26,568 nucleotides of DNA from Tieghemiomyces parasiticus (Eukaryota; Kickxellomycota; Dimargaritomycetes; Dimargaritales; Dimargaritaceae), in contig JANBPT010000673.1 of assembly GCA_027575765.1 (NCBI GenBank), forward strand, positions 1 to 26,568, in the 5' to 3' direction. Below the pieces are notes generated by a model, which saw only the letters and a list, made by a program, of their open reading frames with translations, was not told where the DNA came from and made no database searches. Both the position numbers and the translations under genes were made by a program. The stretch's first letter is position 1. Every line of letters begins with the position of its first letter. Shown one piece after another: positions 628-22,640 of the stretch.

Positions 628-3600
628 CTACCAATCCGTCGGCCGCAACAGCTTATGCAACTCGTCGTTTTCACCGACCAGTGACTTGACCAGCACCATA
701 AGGGCCTCTAAATCCTCGATTACCTCTTCGAGGGCGGCCGAGTAGGCGTACCAGTAAAATGTGCTCAGCATGAAGCCAGACTTTCCCATAAGCAGTTTCT
801 GGAGGGAGCCATCTTCACCTCCTGCATCCGACGGGGCGGGTTGGTCAGCGCTGGTGCTGCTGCTGGGTTGGTTGGATGTAGTGCGGGGGCCGGGCAGGTG
901 AGGCGCGGACGTGCCGGTCGACGACACCCTTGTGGTGGTGTCCTGACCACTACTACTGGCCGGAAGTAAAGACGGGTGGGGCACGGGTTTGGCGTCCTGT
1001 CGCATATGCAAACCGTGGTCACCATCCTCATATTGATCGTCTCCTTCGTCGTCACCATCGCGCGCGTCGTCGTCCGATGGCGGGGGTATAGATGGACTAG
1101 GGGCTATCCCTCCGCGCGGGGCGCTCGACCCCGGTATAGCCTGGGACAGCTTGGGGGCCGTGGCTAGACGCAACCCATTCTTATTGACCGTCAGATCAGA
1201 CGACACTAGTGACTCGTACGTAATGGGGCTCCAGGCAGTCAGATACGGCTCGTACTGCCCCGTTGGCGCTGTAGAACTCCCCGCCTTTCCCCCACCACCA
1301 CCACCATCTACCTGATCCCGCAAATCCGATTCGGAGGCCAACTTGGGCTGGTGCGACATAAGGTACGCCCGAATATGATTAATCAATCGCAAACGGGCCG
1401 CCCGGGCGGACGGTAAGAACGGAGGCAGGGGCGTCTTACTCCTCAACGCTCCAGCGAGGGAATACGCGTTGATCAGGATGGCAGCCGTTACGTCGCGACG
1501 GCCGTGGTGGTTGAACGGTGAAATGATGGCGTTATGTACGCGTGGTGAGATATAGTTGGTAGCGACGCCCATGGAGATGATGCGATCGACAATGTTTTGG
1601 AGGTGGCCGAGGATCGCGGCGTAGACCGCGGAACGGAAGGGACCCTGGAGACGGGGTTCGAGTTGGGCGTCCTTTAAAAATTGTTGGCAGCGGCCTAGGA
1701 GGTCTTGGAGCTGGCGAATGGACTGGTTAAAATCCCGGTTGAGCCGTGCGTGGGCTTTAAGGATCCGGCTGGGCGGGGGAAATTCGGAGTACGGGTAACG
1801 GTGGTCATTCATGATGGAACGCGGTACAGGAGTGGCGTGGACGGAAGTGGTGGTGCGGGGTTGGTCAGTCACAGAGGTCGACGCAGAAGCTGGAATGGGC
1901 ACCCGAAGGTCATTTAACGACTTGGAACGCAACGGAGCTCGGGTCGATTGGGAGGTAGCCCGCGATACCCTGCCAGCCGATGGCCGACGAGGGCTGTGGC
2001 CGCCGCGGATAGTATCAGGTACACTTCGGCGCCGGTCGGCCGAGTTTCCCTGGGGTCGTTCAGCCGCCTCTTGAGCTTCGAGCTCGCCTAAATCAACATT
2101 GCCCGTGCCCAGTACGGCATGGCGCGGTGCGTGATGGTTAAGCGCCACGATGGGCGCCGAGGGTACCCGTCGGAGAGAGGGGTGGTGGCCAGCGGCGGTG
2201 ACCTTCAATCTAGCAATCTCGGCCTCGGCCTCGACAGTACGTACGTGTTCAAGGTACAGCTTGAAATAATGATTGTCTGGGTTAAGCAGCGGATGAATCA
2301 CTAATCTGGCCACCAGTTTCGAGAACACGACGCCAATGCTATCAAGGCCACGGGCTGCCAGTCGGCGTACCTCAACATGAGCAATCATAGGCCAGAAACA
2401 TAGTCCGGCGATGAGGGAGGCCAGGATTCCGGCGATGGAAGTCCAGAGTCGCTTATAAGCTAAGGTCAGTACAGTGTCTGCGTTCACCTGGCCGTGGCGA
2501 GGATATATAATGAAGACGGTGACGGCGTAGAGCGTGATTGAGAGGTAACCGACGCTCTTGTGTGGGGTGAAAATTACAATATAGAAAGCCGGAGTCACGA
2601 AGAACATGGTCACAAAGAAGAGGCCGTAGCTATTGGCCTGGGTCATGTACCAGCTGGCGATGGATACGCTGACGGCATAGAAAGTGGCAATCAGACGATA
2701 CACGCTCATGGTTAGCGTGCGGCCGACCGTCGGGGCCAGGGCAATAAGGATCTGAAATTGGAGGGAAGAAGGGAGGAGGGGGGGTTTGGCAGGAAATACC
2801 AAGGTGACACAGGCAGGTGGTAAAGTTCAACATGGATGGGCAGTGGTTAATGATAACACTTCTGAACGCTGGGGCGGCGGGGTTAAGCTGCGTGAAACTT
2901 AACTTTCCCTCCCCCATCGGCCAGGCCCTCTACCTCTTTACTCCGAACTTACGGTGATGGTAATCCACTGCATCTTTTGTGAGCTGTAATAATACATGGA
3001 ATGGTCGAACCATGCTGGAAAGCTGATGAGTGTGATGGCCAGTGAGATCTTGAGGGCGTAGCGCACAGGTGGGCTGCGGAACCAGCACAGAATGTCCCAC
3101 AGCCGACGCTGGAGCCACCGGGAAAGACCCTTGGCCGGGAGCTCCCGGAATGGGGAGAGGGTAGAGGTGACGGGTGAGGCCCCGGTGGCGATGTAGGCCA
3201 AGTTATCGATGGGTTCGTTGGCACTAGAGCGGGATTCTCGGTCGGTGAACGTCTCCTCGAAGGTAGTATTATCGTCACTAGAGTCGCTGACGAAGGTAGC
3301 CCGACCACGGCGGTGGGGCTTTACGCCCGTGCGCCGGGCTCTCGGTTCACGAGGGTATCTAGCCGACGGCGAACTAGTCGCATCGGAGGCGCCATCTTCA
3401 GGATTATCACACTCACTAACCGACACTTGCTGCCTGTCGCGGCCCAGCAGCCCCTGCCGGACAGACTGCGCCGCATCCGATGTTGCCGGCCTATCAGAGT
3501 CATCTGCTGATTCTGAACCGTTTGATAGTGCGGTATAGCCCCCAGGCAGTTTGCCATACTCTCGGTCCCTTCGCCAGCGCGTCCTCCGCTGCTGTCGGCG

Positions 3601-6171
3601 CCGTTGGGACCACCAGTGCCTAGGACCTTTCGCCGTCTCCAACCCATGTCCAGCCCTTCGTTCGGGTGATTCTGGCCCTGGTCGTGGGTCCGGGGGCTCA
3701 TCCACAGAGACGGGGATGCCCGGTACGCGTCGAGCCACTCGCCGCCGTACCCGACGAAACAGGCGGGTAAAATCCTGATTCCAGCGCACCCGCAGTTGTT
3801 GGGACTTCGACCGAGATATCTGCAAGGCATGGATCTGCTCTACCATGGTGGAGAGCAGCAGCGCAATCTCGCGAAGACTGAATAGAAAGAAGAAAATGAG
3901 GAAGGCCTCCTCGCGGGGTTCCTGGAACTGCGCGGCATGGCCCGGAACGTTCGAGCGAGGATGCAGGGAATCCTCAGCAATAGAGTCACGTTCGACCCCA
4001 GGTTCGACATGGTGGTAGGCCTTGTAGAGTGTCGTGACCTCAAGGGAATCGAACCGTGTAATCGCCTGTTGGATCCGGCGCACGAAGGCTTCCATATCGG
4101 CCTCCGATAATGGCTCGTTTGACAAAACGTGGCGGCACAGGTTATCCATGTCGGTGCCAATATGGGAGGAGGCGGTAGAGTGGAGCCGGTGCACGTCTGA
4201 GTTCGAGGACGTGGAGGCAGTGGTCGTTGCGGACGGGTCTACAGGATTGAAGGGCGATGGCCGTGAAAGCGGGACCAGGGCAGGCGGGGACACGGTTTGT
4301 TTGAGCGGAGTGAACAGGTCGGTCATTCGACGGAGCGGGACCCGAGAACCAAACGGTACGGGGCGCGGTTGGTTGTCGGCCCGCGGGGTCCCGGCGACCG
4401 GGGTGGTCGTGTTCGTCTGCTGATGATCTGCCGCGTCCCCTCTACCTGGCTGCGTCGGCACCGAATTGGGCGGGGCATGCCGCGTCCGCAGACCGAGGAG
4501 GTTACGGTACAAGTTGGCGAAAATCCCTTGCGACCGGTCGTTGCGATATTCCTGGTAGTGGGCCTCGATAGCAGAATAGAGGTGGATCAGGAGGTTGTCC
4601 GGGACGTCGTTGACGATGCGTGGCAAGGCTGAAGAGCGCTCTAGGTGGCGACAGTTCTTGATGAATTGATGGACACAGCGGTCGAGGGTGAGCTCACATA
4701 GATATGCCATTTCGTGGATGGACGGGCCAAAGGTGTCCAGGAGGCGGAGGAACACGGCCGGGTCGGCCCTCTGCAGTTCTTTGGTGACGACTCCGACCCG
4801 ACCCAGTGGCGACGGATCGGCGCTGCGAGTGGCCGAAGCCGCCGTGGGCGGGGCGGTTGCGTAATTCCCGGTATTGCACGGGCCGTAGACGACGAACCGT
4901 TCGTTCTGCACTGACAGCGTCATACTCCCAAGGTGCTGTGAGATCTTGAGCAGGGTGAGTTGGATGGCCGCGAAATCTTCGGGCTTATGACTCGAATACG
5001 TGATCTCGTACTTGGCCTCCAAGAACGTCCGTTGGAGGACGGTCATGGCGGCGCGCACTTGGCCCATCTGGGCGTTCAATTCCTGCGCGGTTGGTAACCT
5101 GGTTGACCCGTCCAGTAGGAACGACTTGGTAGTGGTGTCGATCACCGTCATTACGTGACACATGACCCGCAGGACCTGCTTCTCGAGGTTGAAGGTGGCC
5201 GAAACCGGGAGCAGACAGGTTCCGACCACCAGGGCAAAGAGCGCCCCAAAGACCAACGGTTTGACCAGGGACCAGACCAGCTGCACTGCGCCGGCCTGGC
5301 GGTCCACGTGGTAGGTGGTGGCGATAATTAACGGCAGGCCAAAAAGGATACCGGGGTTAAAGTAGCGCTGATCACGGACGCGGATCAAGCTCATCCAAAA
5401 GATGCCGAGGAAGAGCCACACTCCCAAGATGGCGCGGCCGCCGTGGTCCCCGTCACCTTGGTCGTTGAGATAATGCTCGTTGCACTTCTCGGCGGCTAGT
5501 CGCCCAAGCCAGGTGTACCCGAAGGTGGCGGCTAGGGCAGATAAGGCCAAGATAACCCCTTCCAGGTGGGCGCCAAGGGTTGGGGCCGTCGAGCAGAACG
5601 CGGACGAGAAGGGAAGAATGTAGGCGTAAGGTCCTAGCCAGCGGTCAATGGCGGAAACCAGGATGAAGAGTGTGGACAAGCTAAAGACCAGGACGGCCCG
5701 TACGAGGTGGGTGAGAGACCCTGGGGTGAGCAGTTGGTCCTTGACTGACTTGACTCCGGCAAAGGCAAAGTTGCGCAGACGGACCCTAAAGCTGGGCGGG
5801 GTTTGGAGCCAAGGCGAGGGTTGGTTAGCGAACGTCGGCGGGGGTGCTGTGGGCGCGGGGGTGTCGGAGGGGCTCCAGCCGGAGCTCGCCGCTGCGTCAT
5901 TCGTGCCATTGGTCACCGGAATGCGCACACTATCAACGGAGGAGGAGGACGGCTTGGGGCTGTTTACAGGATATGAAACGTCCGGGTCTTGCGGCCGGTG
6001 CTGTCGGTTGGCATGGTGGTGCGTAAGCCGCAACTGGTCGTCATGCGTCGAGCTAGAAAAACGGGGCGACGGTGACGGGTGCGGAGCTTGGCTGCTGGTG
6101 GACGACATGGCCTCGTCCGGGCGGCCGGGCGTCAAGAGGGGAAGGCTCGACAGCCTGGACTTTGGGCCCAT
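628..6171 (-). CDS. BRE4/ArAE_2-type (FUSC-like) multi-pass membrane protein, two exons
   Basis: Predicted 1780-residue protein from exon 1 (6171 down to 2953) and exon 2 (2751 down to 628). The first in-frame ATG is at 6171; the open frame runs 6 bases further to a TTG, which I do not use. About 150 disordered residues precede a first hydrophobic domain of roughly six membrane segments (residues ~155-325). A cytoplasmic region with a long S/P/R-rich stretch follows. A second set of membrane segments begins at ~1035 (ALKISLAITLISFPAWF) and continues through ITILIALAPTVGRTL into exon 2. This double 6TM layout with APTVG matches the putative ER transporter N-terminal / ArAE_2 / DUF2421 families (brefeldin A sensitivity-related) and the FUSC fold. 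The substrate is unknown; it probably exports aromatic or other organic anions from an internal or plasma membrane. Polar tracts before the conserved C-terminal helix (ALEEVIEDLEALMVLVKSL) are low complexity. Confidence in the family is good and in the function low. Confidence 0.8.
2752..2952 (-). other. Intron of the ArAE_2-type gene
   Basis: This is a 201-base phase-0 intron. The donor reads ACC|GTAAGT and the acceptor TTTCAG|ATC on the minus strand, after a long C/T tract. Without splicing the upstream frame stops 12 bases in (V-S-S-E-stop). With splicing it reads QWITIT|ILIALAPTVG, which restores a continuous membrane helix and the conserved APTVG motif. Confidence 0.85.
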
Positions 6172-14811: not shown

Positions 14812-16002
14812 TCAATAGTTATAGTCACACTTACAGGATGAAAGGATACTTGGAATGTAAACAGTTTCAGGCCTATCCCCCTTTACAATGAAATATTGGG
14901 AAGATCGAGCAAGATCAGGGTCCTCGTTAAGGATACTGTCCACATCCCCCTTATTCAACAAGGAATAGGATATACCTGAAGGTGAATTCCTATTAACATC
15001 AAGGCGCAGAACCGCAGTATCTTTGTCCACTGTGAGATGTTCCAGCGATCTGAGATACACGGGGGCCTCTTTTCCGATCAAGTCTTTGACCATACCGGTC
15101 ACGATTTTGAGAGACATGTCATAGGCCGTAACGCGCCTATCTTCTTCTTGACTGAAAGTATTGCCATTGGTGGTCACCTTGGCTTGGCGAGACAGCCTGT
15201 AGGCCGGAATGTCCTCAGATTTTACCTGACTGGGAGTATAGCCATTGGCAGTCACCTCAGCTTGGACATTTAGGTGGGGGAAGGCTGCCTTGCAGATGTC
15301 GAAGTAGTCCTGGTTGACAACAAGCACGTTAGGACTAGAGGACTTGAACAGCATATAATCTTGGACCGGCTTACCGGGGAAAATTGTATTGTACTCGTTA
15401 TCGGACTTTGGGTCATAGCTGGAAGACTGTCGAGAAGGGTTGTATGAGTCCTGGTTCTCCAACGGCGTAAAATGGCTTGGCTGCTGATCAGGTATAGGTG
15501 GGAGGTGCTTGGTCTTCTGACGTGCACCGCCCCCCACCTTGCTGCCCAAAGAGATGCGCCATGGCTCATCACTGGAAGAAATCGGTAAAGGGGATTCGAC
15601 AACCGCCGGCGAATACGCTGGACCAACCAGCGTGTCGGTGTCCTCGTCGTTGGGTGAATTAAAGTTGCCCTGCGTCTCCGTATCCAGCCCAAGCTGGCGT
15701 AGCAGCTCATTGTATATAGCTGGGTTTGTCACAGGCTTCCTTTCAGCAGGCAATCCGGTTCGGATACGAGATGGTAGTACATGGGAGCTGAGGGGATCGG
15801 AGTCGCCAAATGAAGGCCCCTGCGGCGCCTCATCACGGTCATTGGCGGATTGGGTAAGTCCGGTAGCAAGGAGCGCGGGTCGGCCGTTGAAATTCATCCG
15901 GTCCATGTTCAGGGAGGGCGGAGCCAAGGAATCATCATTGCGTGTAGAACCGCTAACCGTGCTGGCGGCAGCAGCAATCCAGACGAGGCAGGTGAGCTTC
16001 AT
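14812..16002 (-). CDS. Secreted protein of unknown family with internal tandem repeat
   Basis: Predicted 396-residue extracellular protein, intronless, start ATG 16002. Residues 1-18 (MKLTCLVWIAAAASTVSG) form a clear signal peptide. Residues ~20-215 are polar, rich in S, P, N and D, and probably disordered. The more compact C-terminal half contains MLFKSSSPNVLVVNQDYFDIC and, after the repeat, helical sequence around YDMSLKIVTGMVKDLIG. Residues 247-271 and 273-297 are two tandem copies of a 25-residue unit (QAEVTANG... and QAKVTTNG..., each ending AY-x2-S). The protein ends CKCDYNY; mature Cys are only C237, C390 and C392. No catalytic motif or known domain is recognised. A secreted, lineage-specific, possibly effector-like role is inferred from the signal peptide and the gene-sparse setting. 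Confidence 0.75.
   Translation of the reverse strand: MKLTCLVWIAAAASTVSGSTRNDDSLAPPSLNMDRMNFNGRPALLATGLTQSANDRDEAPQGPSFGDSDPLSSHVLPSRIRTGLPAERKPVTNPAIYNELLRQLGLDTETQGNFNSPNDEDTDTLVGPAYSPAVVESPLPISSSDEPWRISLGSKVGGGARQKTKHLPPIPDQQPSHFTPLENQDSYNPSRQSSSYDPKSDNEYNTIFPGKPVQDYMLFKSSSPNVLVVNQDYFDICKAAFPHLNVQAEVTANGYTPSQVKSEDIPAYRLSRQAKVTTNGNTFSQEEDRRVTAYDMSLKIVTGMVKDLIGKEAPVYLRSLEHLTVDKDTAVLRLDVNRNSPSGISYSLLNKGDVDSILNEDPDLARSSQYFIVKGDRPETVYIPSILSSCKCDYNY
15112..15264 (-). repeat. Coding tandem duplication, 78-bp period
   Basis: Two adjacent in-frame copies of a 75-base unit are offset by 78 bases. Both copies contain GCCATTGG followed by a related GTCACCT..GCTTGG block on the plus strand. They encode residues 247-271 and 273-297 of the secreted protein. 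Copies have diverged at about half of residues, so the duplication is not recent. Confidence 0.7.
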
Positions 16003-20311: not shown

Positions 20312-20968
20312 CTATAGAGTCGAGGTCCCAGATTCGTCGACGGTGCTGTGCCAGACATATCTGATCGTCATGAAATCGGCGAGTTTAGCCGGATCGATTG
20401 CAAGGTGCAATTCACAAGTAGGGTAGTTAAAAACGCCAAAGTTCGCGTTATAGCAGATACCCTTGCCATCCGCGGCGCCTCGGATCTGGGAGACAACCAT
20501 CGTGTCAATAGTACGATCATGGGCGCAGCTTATTGTGAAAATGTACGCCTGGAAATTGGCTGCCTGGGCAGCGCATGGGTCTACAGGCGAAGGTGAGGGG
20601 CTCTCTGAAGTAACAGTTTCAATCGTGGCACTGGAGGTCGATTGGACGAGTTCTGGCTCGCTGCTGCTATCCAAGGATGGCTCTGAGGATGAATCGCTAG
20701 GGGGTGTCGACGCGGTCGCAGAATCAGTTGTGCTGGGGACCTCGCTCGATTCAGTAGGAGTTATTGAAGTGAAAATTTCGGTCTCAACACTAGCAGTGGA
20801 AGTGGTAGAAATATCGGTCGAAGAAGCGGGGACGTTCGTCTGAGGGAAGCAGCGCTGAATATCATCACGCTTAGCCAAGCCGTTCTGGCAGTCAGCCACG
20901 GCCGGGTGGGCGAGCACATAGGCTTGGAACGCGACCAAAGCCAGGGTGGCAGTAGCGAACAGTTTCAT
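20312..20968 (-). CDS. Six-cysteine secreted protein, member A
   Basis: Predicted 218-residue secreted protein of an unrecognised family, paralogous to the gene at 22101-22640. I chose ATG 20968, which follows an AAA and opens a signal peptide (residues 1-20, ending YVLA). An in-frame ATG at 21061 would bury that signal. The mature N-terminus has C27 and C40 around LAKRDD, a Kex2-type Lys33-Arg34 site. Residues ~45-129 are a Ser/Thr/Glu/Pro-rich linker likely to be O-glycosylated. The C-terminal domain has C132, C148, C172 and C185, spaced C-x15-C-x23-C-x12-C. It is followed by ELHLAIDPAKLADFMTIRY. No enzyme motif is seen. It is probably exported, proprotein-processed and disulfide-bonded. 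A role in wall, adhesion or host/prey interaction is inference. Confidence 0.85.
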   Translation of the reverse strand: MKLFATATLALVAFQAYVLAHPAVADCQNGLAKRDDIQRCFPQTNVPASSTDISTTSTASVETEIFTSITPTESSEVPSTTDSATASTPPSDSSSEPSLDSSSEPELVQSTSSATIETVTSESPSPSPVDPCAAQAANFQAYIFTISCAHDRTIDTMVVSQIRGAADGKGICYNANFGVFNYPTCELHLAIDPAKLADFMTIRYVWHSTVDESGTSTL

Positions 20969-21004
20969 TTTGATGAAAAGGCGGGGTGAGGGAACTACGT
21001 GGGC

Positions 21005-21010
21005 CACGTG
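21005..21010. promoter_or_regulatory. CACGTG E-box
   Basis: CACGTG between the TATA element and the ATG of member A, within GCCACGTGGC, which is a 10-base perfect palindrome. The motif suggests a bHLH factor site; not otherwise supported. Confidence 0.3.
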
Positions 21011-21076
21011 GCGGGATGGAATAGTAGGAAACTGCAAGTAGTGGAAATAACCATATCGCATTCAAGAAGCCGAGGG

Positions 21077-21092
21077 GTCATTTATATTATCC
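21077..21092 (-). promoter_or_regulatory. TATA-box core promoter of member A
   Basis: The minus strand reads GGATAATATAAATGAC, about 110 bases before ATG 20968. It matches 13 of 16 positions of the element in front of the paralogous gene. Confidence 0.55.
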
Positions 21093-22029
21093 AGGCCATG
21101 GGTAGTCGACCCCCCGCTGCCATTGCAGGTTGGATCGCCCAGTGGTTCGTAGTCTACCTCGTAGCAGCAGGACAAGCTCTCCAGGAGGAAGTGAGCGCTG
21201 AAAGGGTAACACTACAGCTGCGGTCTATTTTTAACTTTAGAGATCGCCGTTGGTCACTTTCGTACGAAAAAAGTAGAAGGCGTGGACGGGTTTCACCAAA
21301 CGCGTCACCTCCATTGACCAAAGATAATGGCCTTCACCATTTCGCCATAAATACTATACTTGGTAGGCATGGCCGGTTGGACGGCGCAAGTCCGGCAGTA
21401 TAGACGAATTTCCCACATGACAATTTTTGCCACTGTGGAGCGCTTCGTGTGAAACTCCGAAATCAGGATCGTCCCTGAATGAAACTAGAGAACATGATAT
21501 TGTGGCAGGATGTACGTTCCGAGGGAGGGGACAGGTAGAGGAAACGACTGAGAGAGATCCGGAGGCGAGCGGGCCAAGTTGGTAATAAAAACGTTTATTA
21601 TTTGCACACTTAGTGCGAACAAGCTGTTATGGGCGCATTGTCCGCTATAAGTATTTTCGCGGCTGGGATGATGCCATATCGTCCGCTGGACTCGTTGGGG
21701 CGGTAGGTGGGCCTTGTCTTTGTCTTGGTTGTTCGCGGGCAATCTCCCTGTTGTGCACACTGTCGGTGTTTCCTGTGGAAGGGTGTGGGCTTCTGTGGAG
21801 TCGTCCTTTGTGGGGCTGGGAGCATCCTGACTGGCCCATCGGTTACAATATGGAACTCTGCGGTGAAGCCTTTACTGACGCCCACCTTAGCTCTAAAGGA
21901 ATTTAGAGGGGATTCTTCACTAGCGTTACTAGGCATTCGCATTTAATATCACGCGGTTTGGTTAGGACATACAGGATGGCATTCAACAACTTCGCGCCCG
22001 TTGTACTATCGTACGTATTCATCAATGAC

Positions 22030-22035
22030 TTTATT
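22030..22035 (-). promoter_or_regulatory. AATAAA poly(A) signal candidate
   Basis: Minus-strand AATAAA about 66 bases after the stop codon of the gene ending at 22101, mirroring the arrangement in its paralogue. Confidence 0.5.
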
Positions 22036-22100
22036 AGTGGGTTATTTTTCAATAACTTGGTAATGAAATGGACGGGTGCCCCAGCCTGGCAGCAATGGTC

Positions 22101-22640
22101 TTACTGTCTGATTACGGTGAAACCACGAACCCCAGGGAATCTGACAACGGTATTTAGATCCTCGGGGCTGAAGCCGACTCTCAGCAGGCAAGTAAAAGGG
22201 TTACCTGAATAAATGACATGGCACAAGTCGCTGTTCCGGAAGATAGCCCCTAGGTTTTCCAGGGCTTGGTTATTGTTCTCGACAGTCGACGTACAAGTGG
22301 TATACAAATCGTAAATGCCATAGTGTGAGCTCTTTACACTACAAGGATCAGTCGGCGGGCTAGCACTGCTAGTGGGTTCGTCGGATACCGACGACGACAC
22401 GTTGTCTGTGGGGCTCGATGTGATCGAAGGTGAAGGAACTGAGGTGTCACTGGGTGTACCCAACGATGAGGTGGATTCAGACAGAGTCGAGGGAGGATCC
22501 GAGGGCTGAACCGGCAGGCAACGGGCCGGGTCGTCCCGCTTCGCCAGTGCATCGTGACAGTTGATACCAGCCGGCACGGCCAAAGCGCCAACCTGAATGG
22601 TGACCAGGACTAGGGCGGTGAGGGTGAAGAGCTTCATCAT
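22101..22640 (-). CDS. Six-cysteine secreted protein, member B
   Basis: Predicted 179-residue secreted paralogue of the gene at 20312-20968, same strand. Two adjacent ATGs (22640, 22637) give MMKLFTLTALVLVTIQ, a signal peptide cleaved near residue 21. The frame extends upstream only to a TTG at 22721. C28 and C41 flank ALAKRDD (Kex2-type Lys34-Arg35), exactly as in member A. A shorter Ser/Thr/Pro linker spans residues ~44-98. The C-terminal domain has C100, C116, C140 and C151 (C-x15-C-x23-C-x10-C) and is followed by FSPEDLNTVVRF, aligning with IDPAKLADFMTIRY of member A. Outside the cysteines, LAKRDD, DPC and a few positions, the sequences have diverged strongly, so the duplication is old or evolving fast. 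No known domain is recognised. Confidence 0.83.
   Translation of the reverse strand: MMKLFTLTALVLVTIQVGALAVPAGINCHDALAKRDDPARCLPVQPSDPPSTLSESTSSLGTPSDTSVPSPSITSSPTDNVSSSVSDEPTSSASPPTDPCSVKSSHYGIYDLYTTCTSTVENNNQALENLGAIFRNSDLCHVIYSGNPFTCLLRVGFSPEDLNTVVRFPGVRGFTVIRQ

Follow-up and report, generated by a model that had tools for sequence, protein, structure and literature searches.

Secreted stalked proteins of Tieghemiomyces parasiticus with heads resembling subtilase prodomains

Two neighbouring genes of the fungus Tieghemiomyces parasiticus, here called A and B, lie 1.1 kb apart on the minus strand of contig JANBPT010000673.1, within a stretch of 26,568 nucleotides (the window, meaning the whole stretch of DNA that was analysed). 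Each encodes a small protein with a signal peptide assigned by eye, a Ser/Thr-rich linker and a C-terminal head with cysteines. This layout had been described in a first interpretation of the sequence alone (the sequence-only reading), and the reading frames and the sequence agree with it. The same reading took both proteins for an apparently undescribed family with a fixed cysteine ruler and no known domain, which raises the question of what the heads are and what they would do. T. parasiticus is a mycoparasite placed in the Dimargaritales, Kickxellomycotina. The explanation favoured here, with a probability of a little under one in two (0.47), is that A and B belong to a family of secreted, stalked, prodomain-like heads that would restrain subtilases in trans, most likely those of the fungus itself.

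Probable kinship of the head with subtilase prodomains

Searches of the T. parasiticus genome (46.5 Mb in 1,363 contigs, the contig encoding protein P0016 not being among them) found the family at 15 places, in eight lineages: A to D, which form a six-cysteine subfamily, and E1, E2, F and G. A family profile of 11 rows, covering all eight lineages, was compared by hhalign with six prodomains of the same genome, taken from four large subtilases (C874, C791, C476 and C795; L069-L072) and from C288 and C638, both of which lie above the PF05922 (Inhibitor_I9) cut-off. The comparison scored 31.4 (probability 78%, P 1.8e-5), with 71 columns in register, strand on strand. This score was reached by none of 300 column shuffles (maximum 13.95), none of 200 shuffles that kept each column in its helix, strand or loop class (18.15) and none of 200 shuffles inside each element (16.88), and reversed profiles scored 10.7 and 11.3. 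A profile of ACT domains, built from six E. coli proteins with the same general fold, gave 13.1 over 69 columns. Against three of the large prodomains (C791, C476 and C874), the C795/C288 pair scored 39.3, the family 25.6 and C638, as a single sequence, 14.8; C638 is a Pfam-recognised I9 prodomain, yet it stood below the family.

By profile comparison, the A-D members appear to be tied to the prodomains through their E-G relatives, with a score of 45.7 and a probability of 95% between the two groups. In addition, P0004 matched contig C359 at E 2.4e-6 and contig C351 at E 1.0e-4. Descent of the head from subtilase prodomains is judged probable on these comparisons, at about two in three. Peptidase_S8 matches the genome 38 times, counting two pieces that share contig C1323, versus four places found by PF05922, none of which is a family member. 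This suggests that many large T. parasiticus subtilases have a divergent type of prodomain, although only four were read. In each of these four, reading of the upstream DNA revealed an N-terminal prodomain-like stretch by eye.

The idea of a subtilase prodomain had been set down ahead of the fold prediction. Structures were predicted for E1 and B, the sequence-only reading having proposed this for the C-terminal parts of A and B. The models have a common, ferredoxin-like fold, with subtilase prodomains as best Foldseek matches for E1 and mixed ferredoxin-like matches for B. The B model runs in the order helix 99-106, strand 108-113, helix 120-135, strand 141-144, strand 152-157, helix 159-166 and strand 175-178, at pLDDT 66-84 (blocks of ten from residue 101). 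The top five of 782 Foldseek matches of E1 were subtilase entries with a prodomain, four rows being PCSK9 and one pro-subtilisin E; two of these five rows contain the prodomain chain alone. In VIA-align, subtilase prodomains tied with other matches for E1, and the VIA ranges put such matches on the prodomain. Matches to Mesd/Boca, NusG, ACT, mevalonate-3-kinase and procarboxypeptidase prodomains were set aside as a shared general fold; ACT (by profile) and NusG (single sequence, 20 columns) were compared by sequence, and the others were set aside, not excluded. The claim that the proteins hold no known domain is not supported, as the head has a common predicted fold and a profile-level kinship to subtilase prodomains.

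Proposed action and its alternatives

In the proposed mechanism, a signal peptide would lead into a short N-terminal module, cleavable at Lys-Arg in most lineages, followed by a flexible Ser/Thr/Pro-rich stalk and a compact head. The head would be a detached prodomain of the large subtilases of the fungus, locked by a C3-C5 disulfide always and additionally by C4-C6 in the A-D subfamily (cysteines being numbered C1 to C6 along the protein). Its beta-sheet would dock on a subtilase in trans. The tail past the last strand, whose end was transferred from the E1 model over the alignment, is at least 9 residues long in A, C, E1 and G (9 in A), and such tailed members would put it into the active-site cleft; the short-tailed B, D, E2 and F would inhibit by surface docking, or would have lost the function. 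Secreted subtilases, those of the fungus rather than of its host, would in this way be restrained on the surface of the cell or where parasite and host meet, and there the flexible stalk would retain or shed the inhibitor. A more tentative proposal, with the odds against it, is that within one fungal lineage a prodomain was detached from the lineage's own expanded subtilases, locked by disulfides, mounted on mucin-like stalks of differing lengths and multiplied, so that the family would form a new class of prodomain inhibitors, stalked and acting in trans, which govern the timing and place of subtilase action at the parasite-host interface.

Several results weigh against prodomain-derived inhibitors. 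In B, D, E2 and F, four of the eight lineages, the tail has at most 4 residues. Tails that short favour an alternative in which the prodomain-derived head is no longer inhibitory and has been reused for binding or adhesion at the end of a mucin-like stalk, as part of a cell-wall or haustorial surface protein. Stalks ranging from 24 to about 430 residues across the family, and heads so strongly diverged that the head alignment gives 13-26% identity to B, point the same way. However, the head keeps the complete predicted fold of a prodomain and still matches the prodomains of the fungus by profile, and the Pfam results included no adhesion domain; a change to adhesion is considered unlikely, but it is the strongest of the competing explanations.

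The remaining adverse results concern the kinship itself. The A-D subset alone scored 15.5 against the prodomains, which is not significant, and the E-G subset alone 29.1, so that the signal comes chiefly from E and G. The family scored 16.0 against C795/C288 alone and 17.5, in the wrong register, against C638; single-sequence hhalign comparisons of the family with C638 and C288 were not significant, and significance was reached only with the six-prodomain profile. In single-sequence mode, NusG (17.5) equalled or exceeded most prodomains, and only C874 (21.3) stood clearly above every decoy. The best Foldseek match of E1 had E 0.019 (probability 0.99), none reaching E 0.001, and the structure matches of B were to mixed ferredoxin-like families. 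This scatter of Foldseek and VIA matches over many ferredoxin-like families, together with the silence of Pfam, the A-D result and the standing of NusG, speaks for a ferredoxin-like head that converged on the prodomain fold without being related to it, in a lineage-specific family of small secreted proteins or an effector acting on the host fungus. Such convergence is judged slightly less probable again than the adhesion module, since the profile score lies 13 units above the best of 700 shuffles and 18 above the same-fold ACT profile. A trans-acting folding helper, that is, a separated intramolecular chaperone for many subtilases instead of an inhibitor, is highly improbable: propeptides assist the folding of their own enzymes (PMC6993865), and the subtilase matches are numerous (38), but all four subtilases read among them carry a prodomain-like stretch of their own, seen by eye, so that a helper seems unneeded.

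The family, its cysteines and its genomic setting

The cysteine spacings and linker lengths of A and B are as first described, with gaps of 12, 91, 15, 23 and 12 in A and 12, 58, 15, 23 and 10 in B. Protein C, which matched A at E 2.4e-19 with 36% identity in a sequence search, has gaps of 12, 107, 15, 23 and 10, and P0016, another T. parasiticus protein, has 12, 107, 15, 23 and 11. The ruler is beyond chance because C and P0016 carry the same spacing, and homologues sharing it therefore exist. It holds in A, B, C and P0016 but is a trait of this subfamily only, and as a definition of the family it was rejected, C3 and C5 alone being common to all eight lineages. The A-D lineages have both C4 and C6, whereas E1, E2, F and G (four of eight lineages) have neither. 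C1 and C2 are missing in G, and C1 alone is missing in the D-type contig-edge copies, which keep C2. Within the head, the residues shared by all 11 alignment rows are C3, C5 and a single proline. Lineage F has x16 instead of x12 from C1 to C2, and three extra cysteines in the stalk. In A, B, C, F and the contig-edge copies, C2 follows a Lys-Arg-Asp that is lacking there in E1, E2 and G; the Lys-Arg of A is a candidate Kex2-type site.

Joint presence and absence weakly suggests three disulfide pairs: C1-C2 (concordant in seven of eight lineages), C3-C5 (present in eight of eight) and C4-C6 (concordant in eight of eight). Because E1, E2 and G are closely related, the independent events are few. 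A C4-C6 bond in B would connect C116, at the end of strand 1, with C151, at the start of strand 3; these two strands lie side by side in a fold of this kind.

The features of A and B and the family members in the genome are listed in Table 1. The start of A was taken at the ATG at 20968; a second in-frame ATG lies farther out at 21061, and the inner one is preferred because B and C align with it. The linker of A is a candidate O-glycosylated stalk.

Table 1. Features of genes A and B (positions in the window) and places of the family in the genome
Feature	Location	Strand	Remarks
Gene A (P0001, 218 aa)	20312..20968	minus	uninterrupted frame
A, putative signal peptide, residues 1-20	20909..20968	minus	by eye: hydrophobic run and alignment
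A, N-terminal module	20849..20908	minus	with C27 and C40
A, Lys-Arg, residues 33-34	20867-20872	minus	candidate Kex2-type site
A, Ser/Thr/Pro-rich linker	20576..20848	minus	61% S/T/P over residues 42-130
A, C-terminal prodomain-like head from C132	20315..20575	minus	C-x15-C-x23-C-x12-C, DPAKL helix
Gene B (P0002, 179 aa)	22101..22640	minus	uninterrupted frame, layout as in A
B, putative signal peptide, residues 1-21	22578..22640	minus	by eye
B, N-terminal module	22518..22577	minus	with C28 and C41
B, Lys-Arg, residues 34-35	22536-22541	minus	
B, Ser/Thr/Pro-rich linker	22344..22517	minus	68% S/T/P over residues 42-97
B, C-terminal head from C100	22104..22343	minus	predicted model
A and B	window		
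C and 5'-broken D	contig C485		1.3 kb apart
Broken D	contig C1123		
D-type copies	contigs C50, C1299		ended by contig edges
E1 and E2	contig C359, again on contig C351		
F	contigs C1176, C1020		about 560 aa, long TTPVENTEVTPVDSAS repeats, stretch of N
G	contigs C1135, C618		

The paired, diverged copies of several lineages are probably haplotypes. Synonymous divergence between the contig pairs L050/L051, L052/L053, L059/L060, L063/L064 and L015/L016 is about 0.06-0.24, and the assembly seems to contain two diverged haplotypes or a hybrid. Decayed D-type copies that have lost the 5' end lie at L015 4619-4966 (plus strand) and L016 752-1183 (minus strand), the second with stops. Together with the D-type starts on contigs C50 and C1299, they represent birth and death within the family. 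A 575-aa protein on contig C942 (L054 2157-3884, minus strand) has a signal-peptide-like start, Lys-Arg and TTPVENTDVTPAPS repeats as in F, and is without the cysteine-bearing C-terminal head.

The ratio of non-synonymous to synonymous change (dN/dS) was calculated by Nei-Gojobori (NG86) counts, which were small, on four haplotype or copy pairs. It was 0.19 in E1, 0.39 in E2, 0.27 in G and 0.06 and 0.14 at the two ends of F, versus 0.03, 0.12 and 0.13 in three control genes; in the head of E1, the copies differ by seven synonymous and no non-synonymous changes. E1, E2, F and G are under purifying selection; in F it is no looser than in the control genes, but in E1, E2 and G it is. These ratios below 1 speak against the suggested diversifying evolution, and diversifying selection was rejected as a general rule; A and B are single-copy in the genome searched and lie outside this comparison. 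C and P0016 differ in 40 alignment columns. Of these, 15 fall within the C4-C6 interval of 35 positions and 3 among the 38 positions that follow C6, so the C4-C6 stretch is possibly a local hot spot at the protein level.

A profile search, which the sequence-only reading had advised for related fungal genomes, was made against 5.8 billion proteins, scoring being confined to the 7,995 candidates with the most words in common. It returned three proteins, all from T. parasiticus: the hypothetical proteins IWQ60_011527, IWQ60_004339 and IWQ60_011967, one of them letter-for-letter protein C. B alone gave none of 222 candidates at E <= 1, and the head of E1 found only itself among seven candidates, so none of the three protein searches matched another species. 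The family has thus been seen so far only in T. parasiticus, although the searches would not imply that it is restricted to this species. Among PDB sequences, the family profile had no match and the C288 exon gave chance rows only. A and B had no Pfam match at E up to 1. A known cysteine-rich secreted domain of Pfam (E < 0.001) was looked for and rejected, the best rows for the family (E 0.03, and 0.013 to COA2) being at chance level. PF05922 was not listed, up to E 10, for the 11 head rows, which cover all eight lineages, or for 10 further rows of full-length proteins or open pieces from lineages other than F and from copies away from contig edges, with filters that drop most matches above about 0.1. 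The family is therefore not filed under Inhibitor_I9. It is real and, with no significant Pfam match and no description in the literature searched, it stands as undescribed there; its head nonetheless has relatives.

Elsewhere in the window, a single-copy orphan gene (14812-16002, minus strand; genome searched at E <= 0.001) encodes a secreted-looking protein of 396 aa (MKLTCLVWIAAAASTVSGS...), which ends in SCKCDYNY and has no Pfam match. Two frames with BRE4 and ArAE_2_N matches (628-6171, minus strand) may belong together as exons of a single gene for a membrane-transporter-like protein. RNA-family and tRNA matches in the window were searched for and rejected. About 1.2 kb from gene C, a frame judged by eye to encode a carrier protein of nonribosomal peptide synthetase type and a condensation-like part lies at L015 8163-9851 (minus strand).

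Known systems and significance

The family resembles the prodomains of the large subtilases of T. parasiticus in the order of strands and helices as well as in the in-register alignment, and a [VI]-D-x-x-Y turn that leads into helix 2 is common to the C874 prodomain and E1, E2 and G. In these subtilases, however, a Peptidase_S8 domain follows and the six compared pieces are without cysteine, whereas the family proteins end after the head and have the stalk in front. Fungi, plants and parasites all have examples of stand-alone inhibitors that resemble propeptides, and these share with the family a free-standing propeptide fold outside any larger enzyme precursor (PMC6993865). The same paper describes TgMIC5 and SUB1-ProM as parasite propeptide mimics that restrain the parasite's own subtilase in trans. 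These two are stand-alone parasite proteins, likened to the family by description; the T. parasiticus proteins differ in being a multi-member expansion with mucin-like stalks, and their inhibitory action would be by analogy. What sets the family apart from the stand-alone inhibitors is its signal peptide, its long Ser/Thr/Pro stalk, its cysteines and the lack of a Pfam Inhibitor_I9 match. Those inhibitors are not known to carry such a stalk.

Dimargaris belongs to the same order as T. parasiticus. PMC6784888 reports a distinct, expanded subtilase group in Dimargaris and an expansion of subtilases in mycoparasitic Zoopagomycota. The present results offer a guess at function for the hypothetical-protein records IWQ60_011527, IWQ60_004339 and IWQ60_011967, and illustrate that a cysteine ruler resembling a new family can conceal a familiar fold. 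A prodomain-like secreted family in a subtilase-rich genome makes it directly testable how such a parasite protects itself and the interface from its own secreted proteases.
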